Notes under the pieces: generated by a model
What the model was told of the DNA's origin: nothing
The model's input: the letters and a program-made list of their open reading frames with translations, nothing else
Database searches by the model: none
Shown: positions 1 to 17,003 of the stretch, piece after piece
How positions within the stretch are numbered: the first letter of the stretch is position 1
Layout of the letters: each line of letters starts with the position of its first letter
Assembly: GCA_945872365.1 (NCBI GenBank)
Contig: CAMBZJ010000031.1
Coordinates: 1-34,267, forward strand
DNA: 34,267 nt
Source: Klebsiella pneumoniae
Lineage (GTDB): Bacteria > Desulfobacterota > Binatia > UBA12015
Direction of reading: 5' to 3'
Made by a program: the position numbers and the translations under genes

Positions 1-1335
1 GTCGATGTAGCGCGGCAGGTTGAGGTTGAAGTCGTTCTTCGGGTCGGCGATCTCGGTGAGCGGCACCATGCGGGCATAGCGCGGCACGTCGGCCTGCCGG
101 GTGAAGGTGTCGACGATCTTGTGCAGGTCCTGCTCGCGCAGCCGGTTCTTCGGGCCGTCTTTGCGGAAGCCCTTGGAGGCGTCGATCATGAACACGCCCT
201 TGCGGGCGGCGGCGTTCTCCTTGTCGAGCACCACGATGCAAGCGGGGATACCGGTGCCGTAGAAGAGGTTGGCGGGCAGGCCGATGATGCCCTTCAGGAT
301 GCCGGAGCGGACGAGCTGAGTTCGGATGAGGCCTTCCGCGCCGCCGCGGAAGAGCACGCCGTGGGGCAGGATGCAGGCGCCTTTGCCCGCGCTCTTGAGC
401 GAGCGGATGATGTGCAGCAGGTAGGCGTAGTCGCCCTGCTTGGTGGGCGGCTCACCCCAGGCGAAGCGCTGGAAGGGGTCGTTCGAGGTGTTAAGGCCGG
501 TGGTCCAGGTCTTGTCGGAGAAGGGCGGATTGGCGACGACGTAGTCGTAGGTGCGGAGCTGCTCGCCGTCCTTGAACTTGGGCTCGGCGAGCGTGTTGCC
601 CGAGACGATGTTGGCCGTGGGGAAGTCGTGCAGGATCATGTTCATGCGGGCGAGGCCCGCCGTGGTCACGTCCTTCTCCTGCCCTTCGAGCGTGATGTGC
701 TTGCCCGCCTCGGCGGCCACCTTGAGCAGCAGCGAGCCGGAACCGCAGGTGGGGTCGTAGGCGGTGGTGGACGCCTTCGTGTTCTGCGGCGAGATGCCGA
801 TCGCCTTGGCGATGATGCGGCTGACCTCGGCGGGGGTGTAGAACTGCCCCTTGCTCTTGCCGCTCTCGGTGGCGAAGTGCCGCATCAGGTACTCGTAGGC
901 GTCGCCGAGGATGTCGTCGTGCTCGGCGCGGTTCTGCGAGAAGTCGAGCTGCGGGCGGGCGAAGATGTTGATCAGGTTGGTCAGCTTCTCGACCTTGGCC
1001 TGCCCCTCACCGAGCTTGTTGGAGTCGTTGAAGTCGGGGAAGTCGCTGCGGGCGAGCCGGGCGTTGGCGTTCACCAGCGGCGCGATGACCTGCGTGTTGA
1101 TCTTGTCGCCGATGTCGCTCTTGCCGCGCAGGTCGAGCATGTCCTTGAAGCTCGCGCCCTTCGGGATGGTGACCGGCGGGGCGAAGTCGGTGCTGTTGCC
1201 GTACTTGTCGGTGATGTACTTGATGAACAGCAGGAACAGGACGTAGTCCTTGTACTGGCTGGCATCCATGCCGCCGCGCAGCTCGTCGCAGGAGGCCCAG
1301 AGGGAGGAGTAGAGGTCGGATTTCTTGATGGGCAT
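1..1335 (-). CDS. hsdM: Type I restriction-modification DNA methylase subunit HsdM (3' partial)
   Basis: N6-adenine DNA methyltransferase subunit of a type I restriction-modification system. It would modify host DNA together with a specificity subunit, HsdS, and support restriction with HsdR; neither partner is in view, so they may lie beyond the left edge. The protein starts MPIKKSDLYSSLW, which is the typical HsdM N-terminal helical domain (about residues 5-150). The SAM-binding motif DPTCGSG is at residues 194-200 and the catalytic NPPF motif at 269-272. The reading frame is open for 445 codons to the window edge, ending in LPRYID, so the last few tens of residues of a normal ~480-520 aa HsdM are missing because of the window boundary. 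No Shine-Dalgarno is evident before the ATG. It lies 36 bp after the end of the helicase fragment on the same strand, so coupling is possible. Confidence 0.93.
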   Translation of the reverse strand, partial: MPIKKSDLYSSLWASCDELRGGMDASQYKDYVLFLLFIKYITDKYGNSTDFAPPVTIPKGASFKDMLDLRGKSDIGDKINTQVIAPLVNANARLARSDFPDFNDSNKLGEGQAKVEKLTNLINIFARPQLDFSQNRAEHDDILGDAYEYLMRHFATESGKSKGQFYTPAEVSRIIAKAIGISPQNTKASTTAYDPTCGSGSLLLKVAAEAGKHITLEGQEKDVTTAGLARMNMILHDFPTANIVSGNTLAEPKFKDGEQLRTYDYVVANPPFSDKTWTTGLNTSNDPFQRFAWGEPPTKQGDYAYLLHIIRSLKSAGKGACILPHGVLFRGGAEGLIRTQLVRSGILKGIIGLPANLFYGTGIPACIVVLDKENAAARKGVFMIDASKGFRKDGPKNRLREQDLHKIVDTFTRQADVPRYARMVPLTEIADPKNDFNLNLPRYID

Positions 1336-1336
1336 G

Positions 1337-1359
1337 GGTTGTTCGCTCAGTGGGATTGA
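1337..1359 (-). repeat. Bipartite leader repeat, copy before hsdM
   Basis: On the minus strand this reads TCAATCCC, a 7-nt spacer, then GAACAACC, ending one base before the hsdM ATG. The same two 8-mers in the same order, with a 1-nt spacer, lie upstream of the helicase fragment at 1699-1715. This copy occupies the place where a ribosome binding site would be expected. Confidence 0.6.
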
Positions 1360-1371
1360 TTGGGCATCAGT

Positions 1372-1686
1372 TCAGGGGTCCACGAGCGACGTGTGGACGG
1401 CAAGGACCGGGTCGAAGAGGTGGGCCAGGCGAATCCGGTGGGCCTCGGCGACGAGCCGGTAGAGATGGCCATCGCCGTCGAAGCTGCACGGCCTTCCGAC
1501 TTCGACGATGTCGAGCCGTGCTTGGTCGTGGCGGTAGAAGATCTCCTCGGCCACCCGGCCCGAGGGGCTCTGGTAGACGAGGGTGAGGGCATCCGAGCCG
1601 TGCCACTGGGTGCCGACGACGGAGACGGCTGTTTCGGGGAGGATGCCGCCGACGGTGGTGCCGGGGGTGAGATCTTCGAGTCGCAT
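1372..1686 (-). pseudogene. N-terminal fragment of a large defence-island helicase (104 aa)
   Basis: A 104-residue ORF starting MRLEDLTPGTTVGGILPE and ending HLFDPVLAVHTSLVDP. From memory of the family, this closely matches the first ~100 residues of ~1,000-aa SNF2/DEAD-type helicases found in defence islands beside DNA methylases. In those proteins the text runs on directly into the first helicase motifs (LPHQ..., then the Walker A loop). Here a stop codon follows VDP, and hsdM begins 36 bp later. No helicase motif is readable in the other frames downstream, so this is not a simple frameshift. It is most likely the remnant of a deletion or recombination that joined the helicase 5' end to hsdM. 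A functional stand-alone domain cannot be excluded, since the remaining frame is intact and has no internal stop. No Shine-Dalgarno is seen before the ATG. Confidence 0.7.
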
Positions 1687-1698
1687 GCGGGATGGTCC

Positions 1699-1715
1699 GG
1701 TTGTTCAGGGATTGA
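1699..1715 (-). repeat. Bipartite leader repeat, copy before the helicase fragment
   Basis: On the minus strand this reads TCAATCCC, one spacer base, then GAACAACC, ending 12 nt before the ATG of the helicase fragment. It is the partner of the copy at 1337-1359. It could be a shared regulatory element or a relic of a duplicated leader. Confidence 0.6.
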
Positions 1716-1837
1716 CTGGCCGCCTGCCGAGTCTCGAGTGCGACTGCACCCTTCAGATCACAAATCGGACTGACAACGCCAGAGATGGCCGGAGCTCGCG
1801 CTTTTGGCGCAGCCAGGGGCCATGCCCGGCGGGCTGA

Positions 1838-2494
1838 TCACAGTCGCTTCGGCGAGTCCGAGCGGGCGGCACACTCCGTAAGAAACTTCGAGTCCTTCCC
1901 GATCTCCGAAACGACCTTCGCCGCCGCGCGGTCGATCACGCTCGCAGAGAGCTCGCCTACGGCCTTGTTGATCTGGCCGATCCCGATGGCGGACGAATCC
2001 CCGCTTTCGGTGACGGCAAACGACCGCCGCTCGGCATTATCGCAGATCGCCTCGAGGTTCACCGCGAGCCGGTAGTCGTAGGAGTACGGGAGCACTGGCG
2101 TCAAAAGGAACATCGTGAAGCCCGTGAAGAACGCCTTAGTCCCGTTCGCTGCGTCGTGAGTATCCAGGTCCTCCTGTGCGGTGATTCGGATCGTCACCAC
2201 GCCCGCCCGCCCGATCGGATAGGACGTCACCACGTGCTCGAAGATGTTGGCGTCCGAGAGCTTCCGCACGAACTTCTCCTTGAAGCCCGAGCTCGGGAGA
2301 GCTGGCGCAGCGGCTCCGCTTCCGCTCTGGACCTCGATGGCGTCGACGAAGCCAATCGGGCAGTTCGTGCATGGAGTCGTCGCAGTCGGAGGCAGAGCAG
2401 GCGCCTGCGAATCATGGAGCCGTACCGTGTGGGTGCACCCGGACAGGACGACGAGGGCGGCGGCGATCGGGAGGAGCCCTGCCCTGCCTGGCAA
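1838..2494 (-). CDS. Orphan lipoprotein of unknown function (218 aa)
   Basis: Function not recognised. The N-terminus has a short basic start, a hydrophobic stretch at residues 7-18 and a lipobox LSGC at 17-20, so Cys20 is the predicted lipidated residue and the mature protein would be membrane-anchored. A Pro/Thr-rich segment (30-47) contains a CTNC pair at 42-45. Residues 121-137 form a strongly hydrophobic segment (AFFTGFTMFLLTPVLPY) that could be a membrane-inserting hairpin or a buried core. The rest is mixed alpha/beta-looking with conserved-style charged patches. The frame opens at TTG; no in-frame ATG or GTG precedes the lipobox, so TTG is the only plausible start. It follows the homocysteine methyltransferase-family gene by 63 bp on the same strand, with a GC hairpin between them. 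Confidence 0.7.
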   Translation of the reverse strand: MPGRAGLLPIAAALVVLSGCTHTVRLHDSQAPALPPTATTPCTNCPIGFVDAIEVQSGSGAAAPALPSSGFKEKFVRKLSDANIFEHVVTSYPIGRAGVVTIRITAQEDLDTHDAANGTKAFFTGFTMFLLTPVLPYSYDYRLAVNLEAICDNAERRSFAVTESGDSSAIGIGQINKAVGELSASVIDRAAAKVVSEIGKDSKFLTECAARSDSPKRL

Positions 2495-2514
2495 GCGGCG
2501 GACTCTGCGGCTGG

Positions 2515-2528
2515 CCCCCTCGCGGGGG
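2515..2528 (-). terminator. Short GC hairpin after the homocysteine methyltransferase gene
   Basis: A five-base-pair C5/G5 stem with a 4-nt loop lies about 30 bp beyond the stop at 2558 and before the lipoprotein start. There is no U-run, so this is weak terminator evidence. Confidence 0.28.
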
Positions 2529-2557
2529 GTTGTGGTGAGAGGTCGGATGGACGTCGA

Positions 2558-3511
2558 TCAAGCCCTCGTGCGGCGCACCCCGACCACGTTTCTCGCGATC
2601 TCGCCGAGATGCTCGTCCCAGGTGCCGCAGCATCCCCCCAGGATGTCGAGGTGCGGATATCGGCTTGCGATCTCGCCCATGCGCCGTCCGAGGTCGACCG
2701 GGTCGCCCGACTCGAGGTGGCCGAGCGAACAAAGGGAGACCTTGTCCATCGAGGCCGCGTTCGGGCGCAGGCACCGGACCCGCTCGAACCAGCCGCCGGG
2801 CTCGATCGCCGGGAGGAACTCCAGCGGGTGCGAGCAGTTGATACCGTAGAACGCGGGACGCGCCTCTCCGGCGAGCGCGTCGACCTCGAGCACGGCCTCG
2901 CGCAGCGTCGGGCCCGACGGGAGGCGATGGCTCGCATCGAGCGTGAACGAGATCGAAACCGCGAGCCCCGCAGCCGCACCGGCCCGGGCCACGCCCACCG
3001 CCTCGGGTACGCCGTTGAAGGTCATCGCCTCGGCGAGGTCGACACCGGCCCGGACGAGATTCGCCATCTGCACCGAGTGGTATTCCTCGGCACTCGCGGC
3101 GGTGATCGTCTCGTTGCGCGAGTAGGCGTCGCCGCGCGGGCCGACGACTCCGGCGTAGTAGAGGGCGGGAAGCCGGCCGCGATGGGGTTCGGCGACCTCT
3201 CGCAGGAAGTCGATCGCGCGCACCTGCACGTCGGCGAGCGCCTCGGGCGGGTAGCCGACGCGGCTCGCCCAGTCGGGGCTCGCCCGGTAGTCGAGACCGC
3301 CGAGCAGCACGCCGCAGCCGTGCTCGACCGCCGTCTCGAGCACGGCCGTGTACATCTCGCGCAACTTCGCAACACCCGCGGGGTCGTCGAGCAGCGGGAA
3401 CATCGCGAACTCCGGGAGTTCGAAGCCGTGCTTGTACATGACCTCGGTCTCCTGCCCGCCTTCGGTCAGGTAGACGAGGCCACTCCTTCGCGGCGGGAAC
3501 GCTGTCTTCAC
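2558..3511 (-). CDS. Homocysteine S-methyltransferase family protein (MmuM/BHMT-type barrel)
   Basis: Zinc-dependent methyltransferase of the homocysteine S-methyltransferase (pfam S-methyl_trans) family. It probably moves a methyl group from a donor such as S-methylmethionine or a betaine to a thiol, in the cytoplasm. The three zinc cysteines are present: Cys226 in GINCSHP and Cys294-Cys295 in GGCCGT. The N-terminal barrel motif reads LTEGGQETEVMY, where MmuM relatives have DGGLET. The start is set at the GTG at 3511 because a perfect Shine-Dalgarno (GAAGGAGGT) sits 6 nt upstream of it; a GTG 12 codons earlier has none. The result is 317 aa, normal for the family. It begins 55 bp after the porin stop on the same strand, so it may be co-transcribed with the porin. 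The methyl donor cannot be read from the sequence. Confidence 0.88.
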   Translation of the reverse strand: MKTAFPPRRSGLVYLTEGGQETEVMYKHGFELPEFAMFPLLDDPAGVAKLREMYTAVLETAVEHGCGVLLGGLDYRASPDWASRVGYPPEALADVQVRAIDFLREVAEPHRGRLPALYYAGVVGPRGDAYSRNETITAASAEEYHSVQMANLVRAGVDLAEAMTFNGVPEAVGVARAGAAAGLAVSISFTLDASHRLPSGPTLREAVLEVDALAGEARPAFYGINCSHPLEFLPAIEPGGWFERVRCLRPNAASMDKVSLCSLGHLESGDPVDLGRRMGEIASRYPHLDILGGCCGTWDEHLGEIARNVVGVRRTRA

Positions 3512-3566
3512 GATTCGACCTCCTTCGGGCAGGGCCCCCCGGGTCAAACTCCGAAACCGAGAGCCC

Positions 3567-5294
3567 TCAGTAGTTCAGCTGCACCTGGAGACGGAAGATC
3601 TGGCCGTTCCAGTCGCGGTAGGAGGTCTGGCCCGCCTTGTTGGCGGTGACCCCGTTGATGCCGTCGACGATCGCGTACTCGCCGGTCAACTCCAGTTCGC
3701 GCAGGATCTGCCACTCGACGCCCATGTCCCACTCGGTGCTGGTGCCGTAGGGCGCGTTGGCCAGCGAGCGGTAACCGCCCTTGTAGTACTGGTAGCGACC
3801 GTAGGGCGTGATGATGCCGAAGCGGTCGGTGTCGAACTTGTAGGATGGCATCACGTAGCCGCCCCAGAGGGAGCGTACATCGACCTCGGTCTGCAGGTTG
3901 TTCAGGCCGGGTCCCTCGCCCCAGTTCCACTCGGTCTCCAGGCCGATCGGCTGCGGGTACCAGATGAAGCTGCCGGCGACGCGCCGGTCGGTCAGCCCCT
4001 TGTTGCCGCCGGTGCCGGCCGGCGTGATCTGGTCGGTACCGCCGTTCGGATAGAACTGGCTGCCACTCACGACGTACTTGCCGGTGTAGCCCTGGACGCT
4101 CGCTTCCACGACCTGACCGTTCGAGAACTGGACGGGCCAGGTCGCGCGGGCGACCACGTTTACGTTCTGGTTGAGCTCGATCTGGGAGCCGCCTTGGCCG
4201 TCGTAGACGCCGAAACCCAGAATGCCGTAGTTGCCCGAGCCCTTGAGCCCGCCGTCGACCAGCTCCTTCAGGAGCTTCTGCTTCGCGACCGGCGTGAAGT
4301 AGTAGAAGACGCCCAGGTCGCGCTCGTTGGGAGACACGCCGGTGTTGATCGAGACCGCGCGGTCGAGCGGCACGCGGTTCTGGCTCGACTGCATGTTCTC
4401 CCAGCCGTAGGGCACCTTGGAGAGGCCGACCCGGAAGCGGTGGACCTTCGTCTTGTCGATGTAGACGTCGCCGTAGAGGTCGCGCAGCTGTGCAAAGTAG
4501 GTCGAGTTCGAGCTCGGCGATGTCGATCCCGCGAACTCCGGCTGGATGTAGACGAAGAGGTGGTCGCTCACGTCGGACGAGAAGATGAGACGAGCACGGC
4601 GGATACCGAAGTTTTCGGCGTTGCCGTTGATGAAGCGGTCGGAGAACATCCAGGGATCGGCTTCTTCACGGTCCCACTGGATGCTGCGGTCGAAGCGAAT
4701 CTGGGAGTAACCGCGCAGCGACATCTTCTCGTACCAGGGCTTGCTCTTGTGGTCCTGCGGATGCAGCGAGTCCCACAGGCTCTTCAGGCCGTACTGGTCG
4801 CTCCGGTGCATGTTGTCGTAGAGCCGCGCGTCGGGCGCCGGGACGGCCGCGTCCGCAACCTTCGTGATGCCGTCCTGGGCGGCGCCGGCGGTGACCGCCT
4901 TCGGCGTGCCCTCGGCGGGTGCGGGCTTCGCTTCGCGTGCCACGGCCGACGCCTCCGCTGGCGGTCCCGCCTCCTCGGCGACCGCGGTCGACGGAGCCTC
5001 GGGGCCGGTGCGCTTGGCGGCGGTCGCTGCCTCGGGCTCCCTCCCGGGAGACTTCAGCACGGACTGCCGCTGGAGCTGTTCCTTGAGCTCGCCGATCACG
5101 CTGTTCTGCTGCCGGATCAGCGCGCGCATCTCGTCGAGCTGCGACTGGACCTCGGGAGGTACGGACCCTGAACTCCGGGCGAGTGCACCTGCCGGAATCG
5201 CGAGGGCGCTCCACAGGGCGAGCAAGGCGAGGCCCGAACGGGTGCATGCCCCGCGGCGGAGTTCTCGGCGGGTCGACGCGGGCTTCGTGTCCAT
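3567..5294 (-). CDS. Phosphate-selective porin, OprO/OprP family
   Basis: Outer-membrane anion porin of the Porin_O_P family, which takes up phosphate or polyphosphate during starvation. The 575-aa protein has a signal peptide (hydrophobic core around 20-37, cleavage probably after ALA at 39). A short coiled-coil follows (PPEVQSQLDEMRALIRQQ), as is typical for trimerising porins. Then comes an Ala/Pro-rich linker and a long beta-rich barrel starting near YEKMSLRGYSQIRFDR. It ends in a C-terminal aromatic, QLNY, the usual outer-membrane assembly signal. The ATG at 5294 is chosen because GGAGGGG lies just upstream; the frame stays open a further 44 codons but without a signal-peptide-like start. 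A Pho-box-like site lies 61 bp upstream. It diverges from the PhoD phosphatase gene. Substrate (phosphate rather than pyrophosphate or another anion) is inferred from this context. Confidence 0.9.
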   Translation of the reverse strand: MDTKPASTRRELRRGACTRSGLALLALWSALAIPAGALARSSGSVPPEVQSQLDEMRALIRQQNSVIGELKEQLQRQSVLKSPGREPEAATAAKRTGPEAPSTAVAEEAGPPAEASAVAREAKPAPAEGTPKAVTAGAAQDGITKVADAAVPAPDARLYDNMHRSDQYGLKSLWDSLHPQDHKSKPWYEKMSLRGYSQIRFDRSIQWDREEADPWMFSDRFINGNAENFGIRRARLIFSSDVSDHLFVYIQPEFAGSTSPSSNSTYFAQLRDLYGDVYIDKTKVHRFRVGLSKVPYGWENMQSSQNRVPLDRAVSINTGVSPNERDLGVFYYFTPVAKQKLLKELVDGGLKGSGNYGILGFGVYDGQGGSQIELNQNVNVVARATWPVQFSNGQVVEASVQGYTGKYVVSGSQFYPNGGTDQITPAGTGGNKGLTDRRVAGSFIWYPQPIGLETEWNWGEGPGLNNLQTEVDVRSLWGGYVMPSYKFDTDRFGIITPYGRYQYYKGGYRSLANAPYGTSTEWDMGVEWQILRELELTGEYAIVDGINGVTANKAGQTSYRDWNGQIFRLQVQLNY

Positions 5295-5330
5295 GGATTC
5301 CCCTCCGGCGCGTGGGCGTGGGCCAACCCG

Positions 5331-5336
5331 CGACCG
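5331..5336 (-). promoter_or_regulatory. -10-like hexamer of the porin promoter (approximate)
   Basis: On the minus strand a TAGGGT hexamer follows the Pho box after exactly 10 bp, the spacing seen in PhoB-activated promoters where the box replaces the -35. The match to TATAAT is only 3 of 6. Position is approximate, lying between about 5331 and 5345. Confidence 0.3.
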
Positions 5337-5354
5337 GCACCCTAGGAGTGCCAT

Positions 5355-5372
5355 GTTACAACAGCGTGACAG
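5355..5372 (-). promoter_or_regulatory. Pho box (PhoB-type operator) upstream of the porin
   Basis: The minus strand reads CTGTCAC, GCTG, TTGTAAC. This is the 7-4-7 layout of the enterobacterial Pho box (two CTGTCAT-like repeats, 11-bp period), with 6/7 and 5/7 matches. It is 61 bp upstream of the porin ATG. The genes on both sides (phosphate porin, PhoD phosphatase) are classic Pho regulon members. No equally good box was seen pointing toward phoD. Confidence 0.6.
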
Positions 5373-5401
5373 GATCCGTCGGATTTGGCGAAAACGGATC
5401 C
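5372..5401. promoter_or_regulatory. Perfect 8-bp inverted repeat in the porin/phoD intergenic region
   Basis: GGATCCGT at 5372-5379 and ACGGATCC at 5394-5401 are exact inverted repeats separated by 14 bp. The left arm shares its first base with the Pho box. A dimeric repressor or activator site for one or both divergent genes is possible; no regulator can be named. Confidence 0.45.
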
Positions 5402-5528
5402 CGACCGGGCGGGTAGGCCGCGCCAAAGCGGTGGGTCAACGCGATTTTCCGATCGGTCGCGAAACCCTCTGGGCAAGTCACCGGGTCCCGGGGTAAGGGA
5501 GAATCCGGCCCCGGCCGAGGAGGAAGCG

Positions 5529-7142
5529 ATGGGAATCACCCGAAGAGAATGGCTCAAGACGGCAGGGGCGGCAATCGTGGCCGGCCTTCTTCCGAACCTC
5601 ACTGCGTGCGGCGACGAGGCGAGCGGTCTGCCGCGCTACGACTGGACCGGACCGCTCGGGCCCGAATCGACGTTCGAACTCGGCGTCGCGAGCGGCGATG
5701 CGCTCGCCGACGCGATCGTGCTCTGGACCCACGTCTCGCCGGGCTTCGACGTGGGCCCCGTCGACGTCTGGGTCGAGGTCGCGGTCGATCCCGGGTTCGC
5801 ACGCCGCGTGGTTGCGCGCAGCGTTCCCGTGGACCAGTCGACCGACTACGCGCTCAGGGTGGATGTCGACGGCCTCGAGGCCGGCCGGACCTACTACTAC
5901 CGCTTCTTCGCGCTCGGCGTGGAGTCGCCGACCGGGCGCATGCGCACGCTTCCGCTCGGCCCGGTCGAAGAGCTGCGCCTCGCCGTCGCGAGCTGCTCCA
6001 ACTACGGCTACGGGTACTTCCACGCCTACCGGAGGATCGCGGAGCGGGCCGATCTCGACGGCGTGATCGGCCTTGGCGATTACATCTACGAGTATGCGCA
6101 GGGGTTCTATCCCTTTGGCAACGAGATCGTGCGCGAGACGGCTCCTGCCGGGAAATGCGTCGACCTCGACGGATACCGGGCGCGGTATCGCAAGTACCGC
6201 AGCGACCCGGACCTCCAGGAGGCACATCGGCAACACGGCTGGTTCGTGGTCTGGGACGACCACGAACTGATCAACGACGCGACCTCCGACGGCACCGACC
6301 TGCTCTCGCACAACCCGGCAACCGACGGCGACTACTTCGAGCGGCTCGCCGCTGCCAAACAGGCCTACCACGAGTACATGCCCATCCGGGGAGGGGCGGC
6401 GGACTCGATCTACCGAAGCGTGCGCTTCGGCGACCTCGTGGAGCTCCGGCTCCTCGACACCCGCGGCGAGGTGCGGTCCGGCGCGATCGGCGACGTCGCC
6501 CTGGACACGCCGGAGCGGACCATGCTCGGACCCAGCCAGGAAGCCTGGCTCGATGCGGAACTCGCCGCCGGGCAGGCGACCTGGCAGATCCTGGGGCAGC
6601 AGGTCCCCGTCGCCCACTACACCTACGACGAAGTCGAACATCGACCGGTATTCTTCGACCAGTGGGACGGTTACCCGGCCGCGCGCCAGCGGCTGTACGA
6701 CTCGCTGGGGCGCCACGGTCGTGGCAACGTCGTGGTGCTGACCGGCGACCTGCACGGAGCGTGTGTCTTCGACCTCCCGCGTGACCCGTGGTCGGGCTAC
6801 GTCGCCGCGACCGGCGAAGGCTCGCTCGCGGTCGAGTTCATCTGTACGTCGGTGTCCTCGCCCTACCTCCCGTTCGTCCCGGTCACGACCGAGGAGGAGC
6901 AGCTCGCGCGCGCCTGTCCGCACCTCGCGTGGACCAACCTCGTCGCGAAGGGCTACTCGGTCGTGACGGTCACGACCGAGTACGTGCAGAACGACTTCTA
7001 TGCCGTCGAGGACGTGCGCTCGCCCTCAGGCGGCGCGGAGCGGCACCTGGCCGGCTACCTCGTGCCGCTCGGCAGCACGCATGCGCTCCAAGCGATGGCG
7101 CCGGCCGCGGCCGCCGAGGCGCCTGCCTCGCTCGCGCCCTGA
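5529..7142 (+). CDS. phoD: PhoD-family alkaline phosphatase/phosphodiesterase, Tat-exported
   Basis: Secreted metallophosphatase of the PhoD family, releasing phosphate from phosphomonoesters and diesters outside the cytoplasm. The N-terminus MGITRREWLKTAG is a twin-arginine signal, followed by a lipobox-like LTAC (Cys27), suggesting a Tat-exported lipoprotein. The PhoD N-terminal domain motif GVASGDALADAIVLWTHVSP follows. Metal-site motifs are in order: SCSN (155-158), GDYIYEY (from 183), WDDHE (242-246) and GDLHG (406-410). At 537 aa the length is normal. The ATG at 5529 is preceded by GAGGAGG; upstream in-frame codons lack the Tat motif. It diverges from a phosphate porin, which supports a phosphate-scavenging role. 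A strong hairpin lies 30 bp after the stop. Confidence 0.93.
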   Translation: MGITRREWLKTAGAAIVAGLLPNLTACGDEASGLPRYDWTGPLGPESTFELGVASGDALADAIVLWTHVSPGFDVGPVDVWVEVAVDPGFARRVVARSVPVDQSTDYALRVDVDGLEAGRTYYYRFFALGVESPTGRMRTLPLGPVEELRLAVASCSNYGYGYFHAYRRIAERADLDGVIGLGDYIYEYAQGFYPFGNEIVRETAPAGKCVDLDGYRARYRKYRSDPDLQEAHRQHGWFVVWDDHELINDATSDGTDLLSHNPATDGDYFERLAAAKQAYHEYMPIRGGAADSIYRSVRFGDLVELRLLDTRGEVRSGAIGDVALDTPERTMLGPSQEAWLDAELAAGQATWQILGQQVPVAHYTYDEVEHRPVFFDQWDGYPAARQRLYDSLGRHGRGNVVVLTGDLHGACVFDLPRDPWSGYVAATGEGSLAVEFICTSVSSPYLPFVPVTTEEEQLARACPHLAWTNLVAKGYSVVTVTTEYVQNDFYAVEDVRSPSGGAERHLAGYLVPLGSTHALQAMAPAAAAEAPASLAP

Positions 7143-7172
7143 GACCCGCCCCCGGAGTCCGATCTCCCCGGG

Positions 7173-7202
7173 TTTCGCGGCGCGTCAGGGCGCGTCGCGG
7201 AA
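7173..7202 (+). terminator. Hairpin terminator candidate downstream of phoD
   Basis: A 12-bp stem (7173-7184 with 7191-7202, including two G-T wobbles) with a 6-nt loop starts 30 bp after the phoD stop. No clear U-run follows. It separates phoD from the VOC-fold gene. Confidence 0.5.
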
Positions 7203-7308
7203 TTCCGGCAAGAAACTCGAGCGGTGAGTGGTCTCCGCGCCGCAATGGAGAAGCATTCGGATCCGCGGCATGCTCACAGGCCGAGAGTCAGTCTCCAGAA
7301 GGAATCCC

Positions 7309-7833
7309 ATGGCGGCACCCATCAAGTTCGCTCACATCGTCCTCAAGACCACCCGCTACGGCGAGATGGTGGCCTGGTGGAAGAGCTTCCTCCAGGGCGA
7401 GGCCCGCCACGAGAACGAGTTCATCTCGTTCATCTCCTATGACGACGAACACCACCGTATCGCGATCGCCCACATCCCGAATCTGGAGCACCAGACACCC
7501 GTGCGGGACGGCGTCGAACATTTCGCCTTCACCTACGCGACTCTCGATGACCTGTTCGATCAGTACGAGCGGATGAAGGCGAAGGGCGTCTCTCCGTACT
7601 GGACGATCAACCACGGCATGACGTTGTCGGCCTATTATCGCGACCCGGATGGCAACCAGGTGGAGACGCAGGTGGACTCGATGAACATGGAGGAGGCCGA
7701 TGCGTTCATGGCTGGTCCGTTATTCGCGGCCAACCCCATCGGCCGGGACGTCGACTTCGACGCACTGATCGCTCGCTACCGCGCAGGCGACCCGGTTGGG
7801 TCGATCACCGACTACGCCACGGCCGGAAAGTGA
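7309..7833 (+). CDS. VOC-fold metalloenzyme, extradiol dioxygenase/glyoxalase-like (174 aa)
   Basis: Vicinal-oxygen-chelate superfamily protein. The metal triad typical of glyoxalase and extradiol ring-cleavage dioxygenase relatives can be read: His9 in KFAHIVL, His71 in GVEHFAF and Glu119 in DGNQVETQ. There are thus two beta-alpha-beta-beta-beta modules in a single short chain. The DPDGNQVE stretch is characteristic of the second module. The substrate is unknown; small single-domain members act on aromatic diols, glutathione adducts or drugs. The ATG at 7309 has AGAAGGAA just upstream. A TetR-family regulator gene lies convergently 58 bp away and may or may not be related. It could equally be a non-enzymatic binding protein, although the intact metal ligands argue for catalysis. 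Confidence 0.85.
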   Translation: MAAPIKFAHIVLKTTRYGEMVAWWKSFLQGEARHENEFISFISYDDEHHRIAIAHIPNLEHQTPVRDGVEHFAFTYATLDDLFDQYERMKAKGVSPYWTINHGMTLSAYYRDPDGNQVETQVDSMNMEEADAFMAGPLFAANPIGRDVDFDALIARYRAGDPVGSITDYATAGK

Positions 7834-7857
7834 CCTCCGTCGTCGGCGAACTGCACT

Positions 7858-7883
7858 CGGCCATGCGGGCACCCGCGATGCCG
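7858..7883. terminator. Imperfect hairpin between convergent genes (bidirectional terminator candidate)
   Basis: An imperfect GC-rich inverted repeat (GCGG/CCGC core, flanked by CAT/ATG and CGG/CCG with single bulges) sits between the VOC gene stop and the TetR gene stop. There is no U-run. Confidence 0.4.
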
Positions 7884-7891
7884 GCTTCGGG

Positions 7892-8500
7892 TCAGCCGCG
7901 CAGCGCCGGAAACGTGTGCTCGATCGTGGCGAGGAGATGGGCCAAGGCAACCCTCTCGGCTTCGCGCCGTTGGATCCGGCCGGTCACGAAGAGCCAGAGC
8001 AGCTCGTCGAGCGCCCGAAGCTCGATCCGCATCGCGAGGCGCACGGAGTCCGAATCCTTGACGACGTGGCGCATCCACTGAAGCCAGGCCTGCGCGATCT
8101 CGCCTCGTAGCAGCACTCGCTTCAGGCCCACCTCGTGCGACATGGACGAGGCCTCGCCGGCAAAGATCCATGGTGCTTCGATCGACTTCGCGAAGTCGAA
8201 GAAGAAGGTGAGGACACCGGGGAGCGACTTCTTGAGCTCCCTGAGGTTGCGCGGACGTTCCCCCGCCGCCGCTTCCACGAGAAGGCTGAACTGCTCGCCG
8301 AAACGGGTGATCAACTCCAGATGCATCGGGGTGACGCCACCCCCGGGAAAGTACAGCGACACGAGTTGGCGGGTCACGCCGGCTTCCTTCGCGACGTCGG
8401 CCAGCGACGCGTCCGGGTTCTTGATGAAGACCCGCATCGCCGCCGCGAGGATGAAATCCTTGCGCTCGCTGGGGGACAGGCGCTTGCGTCGCTCCTTCAT
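7892..8500 (-). CDS. TetR/AcrR-family transcriptional regulator (202 aa)
   Basis: One-component DNA-binding repressor. The N-terminal helix-turn-helix is clear: residues 10-28 (SERKDFILAAAMRVFIKNP) form helix 1, and ASLADVAKEAGVTRQLVSLYF (31-51) is the HTH with recognition helix. The ligand-binding helical domain fills the rest and is not diagnostic. The ATG at 8500 is chosen over an upstream in-frame ATG because GGAGA lies 8 nt before it and because basic residues MKERRKR right before the HTH are typical. It is the last gene of the leftward series after the TPR protein (93-bp gap) and is convergent with the VOC gene. Its targets cannot be deduced; no palindromic operator stood out upstream. 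Confidence 0.88.
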   Translation of the reverse strand: MKERRKRLSPSERKDFILAAAMRVFIKNPDASLADVAKEAGVTRQLVSLYFPGGGVTPMHLELITRFGEQFSLLVEAAAGERPRNLRELKKSLPGVLTFFFDFAKSIEAPWIFAGEASSMSHEVGLKRVLLRGEIAQAWLQWMRHVVKDSDSVRLAMRIELRALDELLWLFVTGRIQRREAERVALAHLLATIEHTFPALRG

Positions 8501-8593
8501 TGCTCTGCTCTCCTGCTTTCCGCGGGCATCCCGTGCTACGTCCATCACTCCACGCAGGCTATCGGGCCGGAACAATCGGCGATCCCCCGCCGC

Positions 8594-9325
8594 CTACTCG
8601 ACCTGGACCTGCGGTTCAGACAACATGGCCTTGGGTGCCTCGGGCGGAGGTGTGCCGCCCATTGCGAGGATTCGGGCGCGAGCCAGGTCGCGTACCGCGC
8701 CATCGGGTTCGTCCTTGAGGTAACGCAAGTAGGTTTCGACCGCTGCGTCCTTCGCGCCGGCAGACTCGTGAACGCGCGCTAGCGCGATCAGCGCCTCCCC
8801 GTGCGCCGGCCCGGTCATCTCGACTGCCTTGTTCGCCTCCGCAAGCGCCGCGTCACCCTGGCCCTGGCTGCCGAGCGCGAGCGCGAGGTTGACGTGCGCC
8901 AGCTGCTCGAGCGCCGGGTCGGGCACCGGGCTCGACAGGAACTCCTGGAGGCGCGAAATGGCTTCTGCCGGCTTGCCGGCGCGCAGCCCGGCGCGGCCGG
9001 CATACAGCCTTGCGATACGACCGTAGGCCGTCCCCGGGTAGGATGCCGCCAACTCGTCGAAACTCTTGGCGGCGGCCGGCCACTGTTCGCGTCGGAAGAG
9101 CTCGTTGGCCGCGTAGAAATCGGTTGTCGACCTGGCAGCCCGTGACTGCTGGAGCCACTGCCAGCCGGCGATCCCGAGCAGGAGTCCGGCGAGCACCGCG
9201 GCGATCGCCATGACCGTGCTCTGGTTCTGCTTCGACCATTCGACGATCCGGCTCGTCAGGGTGACGAACTCGTCGGGCTCGCCGAGGTGGAGATCCTTGC
9301 GTCGCAGTTTCTTCGTTTCGCTCAT
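8594..9325 (-). CDS. Membrane-anchored TPR protein, YfgM-like (243 aa)
   Basis: Inner-membrane protein with a periplasmic tetratricopeptide domain (TPR_21/YfgM type). Residues 1-36 are cytoplasmic and basic; a single transmembrane helix spans about 37-57 (STVMAIAAVLAGLLLGIAGW). Helical repeats follow from about residue 70 (AANELFRREQWPAAAKSFDELAASYPG and similar units). Such proteins act as chaperone-like partners of the Sec translocon and outer-membrane biogenesis in enterobacteria; the role here is inferred from that. The ATG at 9325 lies 37 bp after the DUF151 gene stop on the same strand, so the two are probably co-transcribed. Its C-terminal tail is Pro/Glu-rich and outside the repeats. 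Confidence 0.82.
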   Translation of the reverse strand: MSETKKLRRKDLHLGEPDEFVTLTSRIVEWSKQNQSTVMAIAAVLAGLLLGIAGWQWLQQSRAARSTTDFYAANELFRREQWPAAAKSFDELAASYPGTAYGRIARLYAGRAGLRAGKPAEAISRLQEFLSSPVPDPALEQLAHVNLALALGSQGQGDAALAEANKAVEMTGPAHGEALIALARVHESAGAKDAAVETYLRYLKDEPDGAVRDLARARILAMGGTPPPEAPKAMLSEPQVQVE

Positions 9326-9362
9326 GTTCGGGGCTCGCTCGTCTCGATCGGGGCCGGCCCGA

Positions 9363-9878
9363 CTACATCTTGTACTTGAAATCGTCGGGGGCCATCTTCT
9401 CGAGGATGTCGGCCCACTGGTCGGGCGAGACGTTGGAGAGGTTCTGGTCGCCGGTGCTCTCGCACTCCTGCACGTAGCTCGACTGGACGAGCACCTGCTT
9501 GGCGACGTGGATCGGGGCCCGGGTGCGCAGCGCCAGGGCGATCGCGTCGCTCGGACGCGCATCGAGCTCGATCGTGCGGTCGTCGGCCCGGACGAAGACC
9601 CGGGCGTAGTAGGTGTTCTCTCGCAACTCGCTGATCTCCACCGCCTCGACCCGCCCGCCCAGATTTCCGATCGCACTCCGGAGCAGGTCGTGGGTCATGG
9701 GACGCGCCGGACGCACCCCCTCGAGCTCGCTCGCGATGGCGGCCGCCTCCAGCAGGCCGATCCAGATGGGTAGGTGGAGCTTGTTGTCGGCGTCGCGCAG
9801 CACGACGATCGGCGCCTTGGTCGCCGGGTCGAGCGTCAAGCCTCCCACGCTCATGGCAATGGAGTCGGGGCGGGTCAT
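9363..9878 (-). CDS. Bifunctional nuclease family protein (DUF151/BFN domain)
   Basis: A 171-aa BFN-domain protein (DUF151). The hallmark run GGLTLDPATKAPIVVLRD, then LPIWIGLLEAAAIASELEGV and the RPMTHDLL segment, identify the family at once. Plant BFN members have DNase and RNase activity linked to defence and development; bacterial ones are widespread with poorly defined roles, so nuclease activity is inferred. The conserved DARPSDAIALALR block near residues 106-118 is intact. The ATG at 9878 is preceded by GGGGAAGGG. The gene lies between the VWA gene (110-bp gap containing a hairpin) and the TPR gene (37-bp gap). Confidence 0.9.
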   Translation of the reverse strand: MTRPDSIAMSVGGLTLDPATKAPIVVLRDADNKLHLPIWIGLLEAAAIASELEGVRPARPMTHDLLRSAIGNLGGRVEAVEISELRENTYYARVFVRADDRTIELDARPSDAIALALRTRAPIHVAKQVLVQSSYVQECESTGDQNLSNVSPDQWADILEKMAPDDFKYKM

Positions 9879-9913
9879 CCGCCCTTCCCCTACCCGCCCC
9901 GTCCTGCCCGGTC

Positions 9914-9962
9914 AAACCCGGAAAGCCCTCAGAAACCCGAGCCCAAGCAGGCTTTTCGGTTT
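9914..9962 (-). terminator. Two-part hairpin after the VWA gene
   Basis: An inverted repeat with a 6-bp inner stem (AAAGCC/GGCTTT) and a 5-bp outer stem (AAACC/GGTTT), separated by a small internal loop, lies 27 bp beyond the VWA stop. It may end the MoxR-VWA transcript or attenuate into the DUF151 gene. Confidence 0.4.
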
Positions 9963-9988
9963 CCGACCGACGGTCGCCCGGGGAAGCG

Positions 9989-11407
9989 TCAGTCGAGGAC
10001 CATCCGATCGACCACCCGGTAGAGTTGGTTCAAGTTGCGGCACTCCTCCACCACGTCGCAGAAGGGCATGTAGCGGTCCATCTCGCTATCGCCGAAGCCC
10101 CAGGTCGCGCGGCTCTCCGGGTTGAGCCAGATCACCTGCTTGGCGCGTCGCTGCACGTCGCGCAGCACCCACTCGTGGGCCAGGTTGTAGTTGTTCCGGG
10201 CATCGCCGAGGATGATGACCGTCGTGCGCCCGTTCACCGCGGAGAGCGAGTCGCGATGGAAGGTCTTGAAGGCCCGGCCGAAGTCGGAGTGGGCGAAGAC
10301 GTTGATCACGTCGCCCCGCAGCGACAGGTCGATGGCTTGGTTGATCTCGTTATCGTCGAAGAGACGCGTCACCTCGCCGATGTCGGAGACGAAGATGAAG
10401 CTTCGGACCTTCGAGTAGAGATCCTGCAGGGAGTAGACGAACTGCAGCATGAAGCGCGAGACGTTGCGGACCGAGTCGGAGACATCGCAGAGCACGACGA
10501 TCTGCGGCCGATGCTTCTTGCGTCGCTCGAGCTGTACGTCGAACGGAACGCCCCCGAACTGGAGATTCTTGCGCAGGGTGCGCTGGAGGTCGAAGCTGCC
10601 GCGCTTGGCCCGCGCCCGCTTGATCGCAACGACGTGCCTGAGCCGCTGCGCGAGCCGGGTGACGGCCTCCTGCATGCGGCGGATGTCTTCCTCCGAGAGG
10701 TAGTAGAAGCTCTTCTCGGCGAGTGCGGCGAGCTTGGTCGCGTCGCGGCGGCGGGGGTCGCCGCGATCGCCCTCGAGACGTGCGACGCGCTTCAGCAACT
10801 CGGCGAGGTCGGCGAGGCGCTGCTTCACGAGTTCGCGCAGGCGGCGCTCGGTCTCGGGGTCGAGCCCCTGCCCCTCTATCTGGTCGGCCAACTCCTCGAG
10901 CTGCCGGGTGATCTCGCCGAGGCCGATCTCCTGTGACAAGGCGTGCGCGAACTGGCCCTCCTGGAAGCTGCGATTGCCCTGCTGCTGTCCGGTGCGGACC
11001 CGCTCGGCCGCCTCGCGCAATCGCTTTTCGAGCGTGCCGTCGTCGTTGCGCAGAAGTGCTTCGGCGATCTCGGACAGCTTCTGTTCGCGGCCGCGGAGCA
11101 TCGCTTCGAGTTGCTCGAGGAGCTTCTGGTAGTCCTCGGCGGATGCCGAGAGGCTCTTCCCGGTTGCCTCCGATGCCTCGCGGATCGCCTGGCCGAGGGC
11201 TGAAAAGTAGAGGTCGAAGAGTTCGTCGAAGGCCGGCAGGTCGACCGAGCGCTTCACCATCGTCGCCCGCAGGACGTCCTTCACGACCTGGCGAGAGCCG
11301 AGGCCGGCCTGCCCGAGAGCTGCCAGCGCATCGAGACTCTCGGCCGGCGAGATTCGCAGGCCGTGTTGTCTCAGCAGCGCGCCGAATTCGAGGATCCGCT
11401 CGTCCAC
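9989..11407 (-). CDS. CoxE-like von Willebrand factor A domain protein (472 aa)
   Basis: VWA-domain protein of the CoxE/YehP group, working with the MoxR ATPase encoded directly upstream. Such pairs act as metal-insertion or assembly chaperones, the best known being CoxD-CoxE for CO dehydrogenase; no carbon-monoxide genes are seen here. The N-terminal ~200 residues are long charged helices, with probable coiled coil around 90-220. The VWA domain begins near 295, and its metal-ion-dependent adhesion motif DVSDS is at 308-312. The start is a GTG at 11407 with GGGAG 7 nt before it. The gap to the MoxR gene is 45 bp. Confidence 0.88.
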   Translation of the reverse strand: MDERILEFGALLRQHGLRISPAESLDALAALGQAGLGSRQVVKDVLRATMVKRSVDLPAFDELFDLYFSALGQAIREASEATGKSLSASAEDYQKLLEQLEAMLRGREQKLSEIAEALLRNDDGTLEKRLREAAERVRTGQQQGNRSFQEGQFAHALSQEIGLGEITRQLEELADQIEGQGLDPETERRLRELVKQRLADLAELLKRVARLEGDRGDPRRRDATKLAALAEKSFYYLSEEDIRRMQEAVTRLAQRLRHVVAIKRARAKRGSFDLQRTLRKNLQFGGVPFDVQLERRKKHRPQIVVLCDVSDSVRNVSRFMLQFVYSLQDLYSKVRSFIFVSDIGEVTRLFDDNEINQAIDLSLRGDVINVFAHSDFGRAFKTFHRDSLSAVNGRTTVIILGDARNNYNLAHEWVLRDVQRRAKQVIWLNPESRATWGFGDSEMDRYMPFCDVVEECRNLNQLYRVVDRMVLD

Positions 11408-11452
11408 CCGCTCGCTCCCTGCGCCAACCGGACGCCACCCGCCGGGCGCGGG

Positions 11453-12424
11453 CTAGTGAAGGACGTCCTTGTCGTCGGGATTCGCACCGCCCTCGGGGCG
11501 AGGCGCCTTCGCCTTCTGGCGGGCCACGAAGTCGCGCATGTCGCCCTGGGCCTTGCGGATGTCCCCCTCGTGCTTGAAGATCGTGGCAAGAGTGTCGGTC
11601 ACGATCTCCTCGCCGAGGCTCTCGACGTTCAGGATCGCCAGCGCGCGCGCCCAGTCGAGGGTTTCGCTGATGCTCGGCGACTTTTTCAAGTCGAGTTTGC
11701 GTACGCTCTGGACGATGGCGACCACGTCCTCTGCGAGGGCCTCGCGCAACTCGGGGACCTTCAGCTTGATGATCTCGAGTTCGTGGCTCGCGCTCGGGAA
11801 GTCGATGAAGAGGTGCAGGCAGCGCCGCTTGAGCGCGTCCGAGAGTTCGCGACTGTTGTTGCTCGTCAGGATGACGATCGGGATGTGCCGCGCCGAGATC
11901 GTGCCGAGTTCCGGGACGCTCACCTGGAAGTCGCTCAGGATCTCGAGCAGGAAGGCCTCGAACTCGTTGTCGGACTTGTCGATCTCGTCGATGAGCAGCA
12001 CCGCCTGACGCTCGGAGCGGATCGCCCGCAGGAGAGGCCGCGGCAGGATGAACTTCTCGGAGAAGAAGATGCCGTCCTGCTTCGAGATGCGGTCGACAGC
12101 CTCCGCGAGGGTGCCGGTGCCGGCGAGAACCTCGCCGATCTTGTCCTTGAGGATCTGGGTGTAGAGCAGTTGCTTGCCGTACTCCCATTCGTAGAGTGCC
12201 TTGGCCTCGTCGAGGCCCTCGTAGCACTGCAGACGGATCAGTTCCTCGCCTAGCGCCCCGGAGAGCACCTTGGCCAGCTCGGTCTTTCCGACACCGGCCG
12301 GGCCCTCCACGAGGATGGGCTTGCCCATTCTCGCCGCGAGGTAGACCACCGTCGCGATGTTCCGGTTGCAGATGTACTTCTGTTCGGCGAAGCGGCGGGA
12401 GACGTCGTCGATGGACTCGAACAT
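11453..12424 (-). CDS. MoxR-family AAA+ ATPase (323 aa)
   Basis: AAA+ ATPase of the MoxR family, CoxD-like branch, probably remodelling a partner or client protein with the neighbouring VWA protein. Walker A is GPAGVGKT at 41-48, Walker B LLIDE at 143-147 and the sensor-1 stretch LTSNN at about 187-190. The signature YEWEYGKQLLYTQ (78-90) between them is typical of this branch. The C-terminal tail (about 295-323) is charged and Pro-rich. The ATG at 12424 is preceded by GAGG. A promoter match with extended -10 lies just upstream. The client is unknown. Confidence 0.9.
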   Translation of the reverse strand: MFESIDDVSRRFAEQKYICNRNIATVVYLAARMGKPILVEGPAGVGKTELAKVLSGALGEELIRLQCYEGLDEAKALYEWEYGKQLLYTQILKDKIGEVLAGTGTLAEAVDRISKQDGIFFSEKFILPRPLLRAIRSERQAVLLIDEIDKSDNEFEAFLLEILSDFQVSVPELGTISARHIPIVILTSNNSRELSDALKRRCLHLFIDFPSASHELEIIKLKVPELREALAEDVVAIVQSVRKLDLKKSPSISETLDWARALAILNVESLGEEIVTDTLATIFKHEGDIRKAQGDMRDFVARQKAKAPRPEGGANPDDKDVLH

Positions 12425-12457
12425 GGAACCTCGTGGGGGAGCGCGGGCGACGGCGCG

Positions 12458-12486
12458 AGACTATCACCCGCTCCCGAGCCCGACAA
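12458..12486 (-). promoter_or_regulatory. Sigma-70-like promoter of the MoxR-VWA genes
   Basis: On the minus strand TTGTCG, a 17-bp spacer and TAGTCT with an upstream TG (extended -10) lie so that transcription would start about 27 nt before the MoxR ATG. Hexamer matches are 4/6 and 3/6. Confidence 0.42.
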
Positions 12487-12515
12487 CGCGGCGCCCAGCG
12501 TAGGGTTCGATCGCC

Positions 12516-13292
12516 ATGTGCACGCTCGCCCTATTCTTCCGCGCCCTCCCCGGGCTGCCGCTGGTTGTCGCGGCCAACCGCGATGAGTTCCTCGCTCGGC
12601 CGTCGACCGGGCCGACGCTGCTCGCCTCTGCTCCGCCCATCGTCGGGGGGCGCGACCTGGTCGCCGGCGGCACCTGGCTCTGCCTGCGCGAGACGGGACT
12701 TGTGGTGGGCGTCCTGAACCGGCGGACCGGTGTGCCCGCGGACCCGACGCGAGCCTCGCGTGGCGCCCTCTGTCTGGCGCTCGCCCATGCCCGGTCCGCC
12801 GCTGAAGCGGCCCGGCTTCTCGCGGACACCCCGGGCAACGCCCACAACCCGTTCAACCTTCTCGTCGCCGATGCCCGGGCGGCGTTCGTCGGGCAGAATC
12901 GCGGCGACCGTACGGTCGTCGAGGCCTTGCCCGCAGGCCTCCATCTGCTGTCGAACCTGAACCTGAACGACCCGACCTGTCCGCGGATCTCGCACTCCTC
13001 GAAACTCTTTGCCGCGGTCGGACGCCGCTTCGCCGCCGACCCGGTTCGCCCGGCCCTGCTCGACGGCCTGCGCGTCGTGCTTTCCGACCACGAAGTCGCC
13101 GTCGACGATCGCCAGCCGACCGACCAACTCTGCATCCACACGCCGGCGTATGGCACCCGCTCCTCGAGCATCGTGCTCGTCGACGACGGGGGCGCTACCT
13201 CGCTCTTTCACGCGGAAGGTCCGCCCTGTCGCGAGGGCCACCAGCCCGTGACGCTGCCGTGGAGCCCCGAACACCTGCAAGGAGTTCCCTGA
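12516..13292 (+). CDS. NRDE-family protein (TANGO2 relative, 258 aa)
   Basis: NRDE protein, homologous to eukaryotic TANGO2, which has been linked to haem/lipid handling and organelle maintenance. The family signature is complete: an N-terminal MCT with Cys2, which can become the terminal nucleophile as in Ntn-hydrolases, and NRDE at 21-24. The following conserved runs GGRDLVAGGTWLCL and NPFNLLVAD are also present. The biochemical activity in bacteria is not established. The length is normal. It diverges from the MoxR operon with a 91-bp gap, and converges on the phosphatase-like gene with a 36-bp gap. No strong Shine-Dalgarno is seen, but the ATG placement of Cys2 fixes the start. Confidence 0.9.
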   Translation: MCTLALFFRALPGLPLVVAANRDEFLARPSTGPTLLASAPPIVGGRDLVAGGTWLCLRETGLVVGVLNRRTGVPADPTRASRGALCLALAHARSAAEAARLLADTPGNAHNPFNLLVADARAAFVGQNRGDRTVVEALPAGLHLLSNLNLNDPTCPRISHSSKLFAAVGRRFAADPVRPALLDGLRVVLSDHEVAVDDRQPTDQLCIHTPAYGTRSSSIVLVDDGGATSLFHAEGPPCREGHQPVTLPWSPEHLQGVP

Positions 13293-13328
13293 CCGGCCCC
13301 GTCGGGGTCGCGTCGGCTCGCCGGGGGT

Positions 13329-14129
13329 TCAGCGGCGGCGCACTCGCGCGAGTACGCCCGGCGTGGCTCCCTCGCGCGCGGCGACCAGGACGTCGCGGGA
13401 CAGCGCGCCGTCGGTGAGCGATCGCAGGTCGACGGGTTCACCGGAGCGCAGCGAGACGAGTTCGCCGCCGGTCGCCGCGAGCAGCGCGGCGCCGGCGGCG
13501 ACCTCCCAGAGATGAACCCTCCCGACGACTGCAGCCTCGGCCGCGCCGCGCGCGACCAGCGCCAGGTGGTAGGCGGTCGACCCCAGCGAGCGTATCTTTC
13601 GGCTTCCCGGGGAGAACCGTAGCGCAACCCGACGGTGGAACTCCGAGAACGCCAGTACGAACCCCTCATGTCGCGGCGCCAGGCCGCCGAGCGGAACTTC
13701 CGTGCCGTTCCAGCGCAAGACCCCGCCGTGCGCGACGTAGAGGTCGCGGAAGGCCGGCAGGTACACCACCCCCGCCACCGGCCTGCCCGCATGCAGCAGG
13801 CCGATCGAGATCGCCCAGGTGGGCAGCCCGGCGACAAAGGCGTCGGCCCCGTCGATCGGATCGATTGCGAGCGCCCAGCCCTCCGACGGACTGCCGCTGG
13901 TGCCGAATACCCCGCCGACGAGCGCGACGTCGGGAAGAGCGGCGGCGACCTCCTCGCGGACCATCTGTTCGATCGCGCGATCGACGACGGTCACGATACC
14001 CGCCTCCGCGATGCCCTCGCCCTCGGCCCGGCGAAAGTGTGCCAGCGCGAGTTCCCCGCCGCGCCGGGCGAGTCCGACCATCGCCCGCGCACCCAGCGGC
14101 GGTCGTCCGGTTCGCTCGGCCCGGCTCAT
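13329..14129 (-). CDS. Inositol-monophosphatase-like protein with altered active site (266 aa)
   Basis: Protein of the IMPase/FBPase/CysQ fold. The second metal motif reads DPIDGADAF (90-98) against the usual DPIDGT, and the following GLPTWAISIGL matches the family well. However, the motif normally written GEE reads GGVFG at 72-76, so the glutamate that binds the first metal is absent. The C-terminal WDxAAG motif reads WEVAAG (Trp208-Glu209). It may be a pseudo-phosphatase or have a shifted substrate or metal use. The ATG overlaps the stop of the LolA-like gene (ATGA), so the two are translationally coupled; the same frame is open much further upstream, but only this start fits the family length. 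Substrate unknown. Confidence 0.8.
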   Translation of the reverse strand: MSRAERTGRPPLGARAMVGLARRGGELALAHFRRAEGEGIAEAGIVTVVDRAIEQMVREEVAAALPDVALVGGVFGTSGSPSEGWALAIDPIDGADAFVAGLPTWAISIGLLHAGRPVAGVVYLPAFRDLYVAHGGVLRWNGTEVPLGGLAPRHEGFVLAFSEFHRRVALRFSPGSRKIRSLGSTAYHLALVARGAAEAAVVGRVHLWEVAAGAALLAATGGELVSLRSGEPVDLRSLTDGALSRDVLVAAREGATPGVLARVRRR

Positions 14130-15010: not shown

Positions 15011-15105
15011 GGAAACCTCCTTCGGAGCCGCTCCCCGGCACCGGACGGCGACCCTAGGCCCGAGGCGACTGCCGTTCAAGCCCAAAACCTGCCGTCCGAG
15101 CCCAT

Positions 15106-15657: not shown

Positions 15658-15664
15658 CGCCCTC

Positions 15665-16987: not shown

Positions 16988-17003
16988 CGTCACCTCCGAT
17001 GCC

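Follow-up and report, generated by a model that had tools for sequence, protein, structure and literature searches.

A Pho box, the 7-4-7 direct repeat CTGTCAC-N4-TTGTAAC, lies on the minus strand at positions 5355 to 5372 of the window (the whole 34,267-nt stretch of DNA that was analyzed), ahead of a gene for a Porin_O_P outer-membrane porin. The repeat is conserved in both congeners compared and, judged from sequence, is very probably a PhoB operator that would activate the porin gene under phosphate scarcity. This reading was drawn from the repeat itself, its conservation, the pairing with pstS in congeners, the recognition-helix sequence of the congener PhoB, and the porin family. The window belongs to genome G000 (3.1 Mb, 57 contigs, 97% complete), and the congeners were G001 (4.0 Mb) and G002 (3.8 Mb, 81% complete). 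The original prediction had described a PhoB-controlled locus embracing the genes on both sides of the box; the congener boxes, the pstS pairing, and a PhoB encoded beside phoU uphold this for the porin, and it was not supported for the PhoD-family phosphatase on the other side.

Read from 5372 to 5355 of the minus strand, the box is CTGTCAC-GCTG-TTGTAAC with heptamer starts 11 bp apart, which bears out the predicted 7-4-7 layout and 11-bp period. A 10-nt spacer follows (5345 to 5354, minus strand), beginning with AT in all five boxes of the genus, and then a weak −10-like hexamer, TAGGGT (5339 to 5344, minus strand). The hexamer stands at the distance that had been predicted, but it is a poor putative −10, matching TATAAT at three of six positions, and a σ70 consensus scan of 5290 to 5540 identified no promoter. 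Though the hexamers are weak, TA is kept at the same 10-bp distance from the box in 5/5 genus boxes while the remaining positions vary. A Pho box stands in for the −35 element, 10 to 11 nt upstream of the −10. According to excerpts of PMC10294691, the spacing between the two is strict. The porin start codon lies ∼45 nt beyond TAGGGT and is preceded by a putative Shine-Dalgarno-like sequence, GGAGGGGA (5299 to 5306, minus strand), read directly in the sequence.

According to excerpts from PMC3465305, the E. coli Pho box consensus is CTGTCAT-A(AT)A(TA)-CTGT(CA)A(CT), and the window box agrees with it at 12 of 14 heptamer positions. It departs from it twice: the first repeat ends in C where the consensus has T, and the second opens with T in place of C, a substitution that the same source also lists for the phoA box of E. 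coli. As far as the relevant portions of PMC3465305 and PMC4415409 describe them, E. coli boxes such as those of pstS and phoA share with the window the CTGTCA-type heptamers, the 4-nt spacer, and the 11-bp period, and likewise precede pstS and other phosphate genes. The genus differs from E. coli in a first heptamer that ends in C rather than T (5/5), a GC-rich spacer, and a weak −10. Using a CTGTMAY-type score, the box reached 24.7 of 26, and no other site in the window scored above 18.0.

The porin gene was found in both congeners, with 84% identity in G001 and with 81 and 89% identity in G002, where it is split into two pieces on two contigs. A box was present at the matching place in each (CTGTCAC-GCCG-CTGTCAC in G001 and CTGTCAC-GGAC-CTGTCAC in G002), so that the box of G000 is two mismatches away from the genus form. 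Across the three genomes, 12/14 heptamer columns were invariant, compared with 1/4 in the spacer and 51/130 in the rest of the upstream region (heptamers versus remaining columns, Fisher P = 0.001). Conserved repeats around a free spacer are the pattern expected of a 7-4-7 operator.

Genome-wide searches with CTGTCACNNNNCTGTCAC, allowing at most one mismatch, identified two sites in G001 and two in G002, and all four lay before the porin gene or pstS; each congener had one strong site ahead of the porin and its sole other site ahead of pstS. The pstS box reads CTGTCAC-GGAA-CCGTCAC and is followed 10 bp on by TACCTG in G001 and TAGGGT in G002. In G001, it heads the operon pstS-pstC-pstA-pstB-phoU-phoB-phoR. 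PstS, PstC, PstA, PstB, and PhoU of this operon passed the curated cut-offs of their NCBIfam models; PhoB and PhoR scored below theirs, the best model for PhoR being PnpS. Among pstS loci of the class (28 of the 30 fetched were covered), sites scoring at least 22 numbered three on the coding strand versus none on the other, and at a score of 19 the counts were six versus two. The pstS box of G002 falls outside these counts, because the scan took the far end of its frame, which stays open for a long way upstream.

With two mismatches allowed, 14 genomes of the family gave 147 sites versus 125 for the reversed pattern (4 versus 3 in G000, 6 versus 2 in G001, and 2 versus 3 in G002), so weak matches carry no signal and weight was given only to sites with zero or one mismatch. 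Outside the genus, six family-genome sites with at most one mismatch were not obviously placed before Pho genes, judged from their contexts only. Enrichment is therefore clear solely for strong sites inside the genus: the genome-wide enrichment before phosphate genes looked for on the strength of the original prediction was present in the congeners and vanished among two-mismatch sites. In G000, the strict pattern gave one exact site and three one-mismatch sites, compared with none in the reversed control. The three extra sites were set aside, each overlapping an open frame 177 residues or more in length, which is weak evidence in GC-rich DNA.

The porin gene (3567 to 5294, minus strand) encodes 575 amino acids matching PF07396 (E value, 1.1e−25; 91.2 bits against a cut-off of 20.9), with the model covering residues 205 to 575. 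The protein has a signal peptide-like start, a predicted helix at residues 47 to 80, a low-confidence linker, and a barrel from residue ∼190. The helix and the long linker (residues 47 to 182) fall outside the Porin_O_P match. The predicted structure had a mean pLDDT of 63 and a pTM of 0.60, with low values up to residue 180 and again near residues 300 to 320. Its best fold matches were OprP (Z = 25.2; rmsd, 3.4 over 315 residues) and OprO (Z = 24.9; rmsd, 3.6 over 320 residues), the next other protein being OprB (Z = 23.0); sequence searches of the PDB with the porin found no porin. OprP and OprO, the phosphate and pyrophosphate porins of Pseudomonas aeruginosa, belong to the same Porin_O_P family, but identity in the structural alignment was 14 to 15% and the window's porin has the additional N-terminal helix and linker. 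By family and predicted fold, the protein thus appears OprP/OprO-like, a fold alone being no proof of phosphate selectivity. Under phosphate limitation, OprP and OprO of P. aeruginosa increased 82- and 87-fold, respectively, according to excerpts of PMC9769906.

On the other side of the box, and divergent from the porin gene, lies a gene for a PhoD-family phosphatase (5529 to 7142, plus strand) with a Tat-like leader recognized by eye. It matched PF09423 (E value, 6.2e−94; 315.4 bits) and PF16655 (87 bits) and scored 278.1 against a cut-off of 1000 with the NCBIfam PhoD equivalog model. The two genes appear to have been brought together at a synteny junction at 5423 to 5432, where the left half corresponds to the porin locus of G001 and the right half to PhoD loci. 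Window positions 3549 to 5422 aligned with the G001 porin contig, 5433 to 7260 with the G002 PhoD contig, and 5457 to 7260 with the G001 PhoD contig. In both congeners, porin and PhoD are on different contigs, and the G001 upstream flanks of the two genes were found in G000 on contigs C11 (21601-23242) and C30 (1548-3596). The junction thus exists in one genome of three, that of the window, and the adjacency may have arisen by rearrangement or misassembly. No tRNA gene was found in the window.

A single box driving both the porin and PhoD would be a compatible addition to the PhoB reading, and it could be argued from the divergent arrangement, in which 157 bp separate the box from the start codon of PhoD. 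PhoD-family phosphatases are, moreover, often Pho genes. Such bidirectional control is nevertheless quite unlikely, as the box and its downstream TA face the porin only and the junction is private to G000. The upstream regions of PhoD in the three genomes contain no box, and the congener orthologs, located on their separate contigs (L208 and L209), have no site scoring at least 17.5. In place of a box, the PhoD upstream region (5433 to 5528) keeps blocks common to the three genomes, GGGTCAACG-GAT and CCCTCTGGGCA, which form a candidate promoter or operator. Separate contigs, boxless upstream regions, and a private junction mean that PhoD is not evidence for the box, and it is most likely an incidental neighbor with its own promoter, probably not controlled by the box. 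The original prediction had counted Pho-type genes on both sides in its favor; the porin retains that role, and PhoD does not. That a recent rearrangement placed PhoD beside the Pho-controlled porin promoter, and that the box now also induces it, is very unlikely; if true, PhoD would be a natural case of stress-regulon gene capture through promoter sharing. Weak box-like sites near two PhoD paralogs (L212 at 5108, score 21; L215 at 8964, score 19.7) were rejected, as neither is conserved in the orthologous upstream sequence of the other genome compared.

The regulator itself was sought in all three genomes. In each congener, one OmpR/PhoB-type DNA-binding domain was detected, beside phoU. The G001 PhoB and E. 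coli PhoB (entry 1gxp) share an identical stretch, RTVDVHIRRLR, and from the PhoB-DNA structure we take this helix to be the one that reads the box. PhoB binds direct repeats head to tail, as stated in excerpts of PMC4415409, which cite the PhoB-DNA structure. Profile searches of G000 detected no match to PF00486 (Trans_reg_C), PF01895 (PhoU), or PstS.

These negative results coincide with a break in the assembly. Along G001 contig C109, G000 contig C17 aligned within 52 to 4851, C56 with 4704 to 8383, and C47 with 18356 to 19994; the intervening stretch from 8384 to 18355, carrying phoB, phoU, and the pst genes, had only matches of <100 bases on other contigs of G000. Contig C56 of G000 (L095; 3,572 bases) stops inside an open phoR frame at the point where phoB comes next in G001, and C47 (L102) starts on the far side of the missing stretch. 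With phoR cut at a contig end and C47 resuming beyond, an assembly gap is the simplest reading and most likely accounts for the missing PhoB, PhoU, and Pst proteins; phoB would then lie in the unassembled gap. A true loss of PhoB, PhoU, and Pst from the species would instead leave the box a decaying relic, its second heptamer now TTGTAAC rather than CTGTCAC. The lack of all three matches in a genome that is 97% complete favors such a loss, but it is highly improbable given the gap-like contig ends, and TTGTAAC fits the E. coli consensus, as excerpted from PMC3465305, almost as well. The case cautions that the absence of a regulator from a 97% complete assembly can be an artifact of contig breaks.

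Repeats of this kind are also read by another regulator of the OmpR family: M. tuberculosis PhoP recognizes 7-bp repeats with a 4-bp spacer, according to excerpts of PMC4832192. That the box serves such a PhoP-like protein and not the phosphate regulator is extremely improbable, since the only OmpR-type domain detected in each congener (G002 being 81% complete) is encoded beside phoU and the second site stands before pstS. As for chance, CTGTCACNNNNYTGTMAC with at most two mismatches matched the window once, with zero mismatches, against 0.46 expected in shuffles, a count that is not significant by itself. In dinucleotide-matched simulated sequence, one site scoring like the box occurred in 34 Mb of one strand, giving an expectation of ∼0.002 for the window and 0.18 for a genome of 3.1 Mb, a rough and flattering estimate that rests on a count of one and on a score table drawn up once the box was known. 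A chance repeat without function is the least probable explanation of all: the motif is short for a 3-Mb genome and two-mismatch sites are common, but the position-specific conservation in three genomes, the pairing with pstS, and that low expectation argue against it.

If the element is a PhoB operator, PhoR would phosphorylate PhoB, and a PhoB dimer would sit head to tail on the two 11-bp direct repeats. From this −35 position, PhoB could recruit RNA polymerase to the weak −10 sequence 10 bp downstream, activating the porin gene in response to low phosphate. The OprP/OprO-like porin might then pass phosphate or polyphosphate across the outer membrane towards PstSCAB, whose operon is preceded by a box of this kind in the congeners. 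This mechanism is the classic PhoB switch, ordinary in kind, and literature searches, judged by title, identified no report on Pho boxes of this genus. The box extends the classic operator, nearly unchanged, to a GC-rich genus represented by draft assemblies. Sinorhizobium meliloti and Streptomyces coelicolor are likewise GC-rich. Both are named among Pho-box organisms in excerpts of PMC4415409, where differing GC content is remarked upon for S. coelicolor, and the earlier view thus overstated how seldom Pho boxes have been reported from GC-rich lineages.

To place the box among related porins, the regions upstream of homologous genes were scored; upstream sequence was available for 61 of 66 loci, both congeners included (L113, L116, L120, L123, and L160 had none). 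Sites scoring at least 22 were identified on the coding strand in 11/61, with none on the reverse strand and 0.0 in shuffles, and were absent from the coding strand of the remaining 50. At a threshold of 20, the forward and reverse counts were 18 versus 0, and at 19 they were 23 versus 7 (n = 61); given the seven reverse-strand sites, weight was placed only on scores of at least 20. Nine of the 11 high-scoring upstream regions were from outside the genus: two from Hydrocarboniphaga, one from Novosphingobium, four from Sphingobium, and two from Erythrobacteraceae metagenome-assembled genomes (MAGs). The four Sphingobium boxes are closely related and hence not independent.

Porins of Hydrocarboniphaga, Novosphingobium, and Sphingobium (L119, L121, L124, L126, L129, and L162) shared 39 to 47% identity with the window's porin and, as in the window, had a coding-strand box before the gene, scoring 25 to 26. 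Among Planctomycete homologues (L106 to L112, L114, L115, L117, L118, L131, L163, and L165), 0/14 usable upstream regions reached 20 on the coding strand, and several of these porins are nearer in sequence to that of the window yet scored <20. Boxes thus precede homologous porin genes in this genus and in Hydrocarboniphaga, Sphingobium, and Novosphingobium but not those in the Planctomycetes examined, a distribution that makes a phosphate role of these porins testable. Outside the genus, a scan of named genomes gave its best porin matches in Planctomycetes, with up to 51% identity, which hints that the gene may have been transferred between phyla.

The heptamers before the porins of Hydrocarboniphaga, Novosphingobium, and Sphingobium differ from those of the window in being mostly CTGTCAT, and in the sphingobia a third, degenerate repeat follows at a further 11 bp. 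This third repeat (TCGCCAT or GCGACAT), in the same 11-bp period, was observed in the upstream regions of porin loci L126, L129, L135, L152, and L162 and suggests that sphingomonads may use a longer operator.
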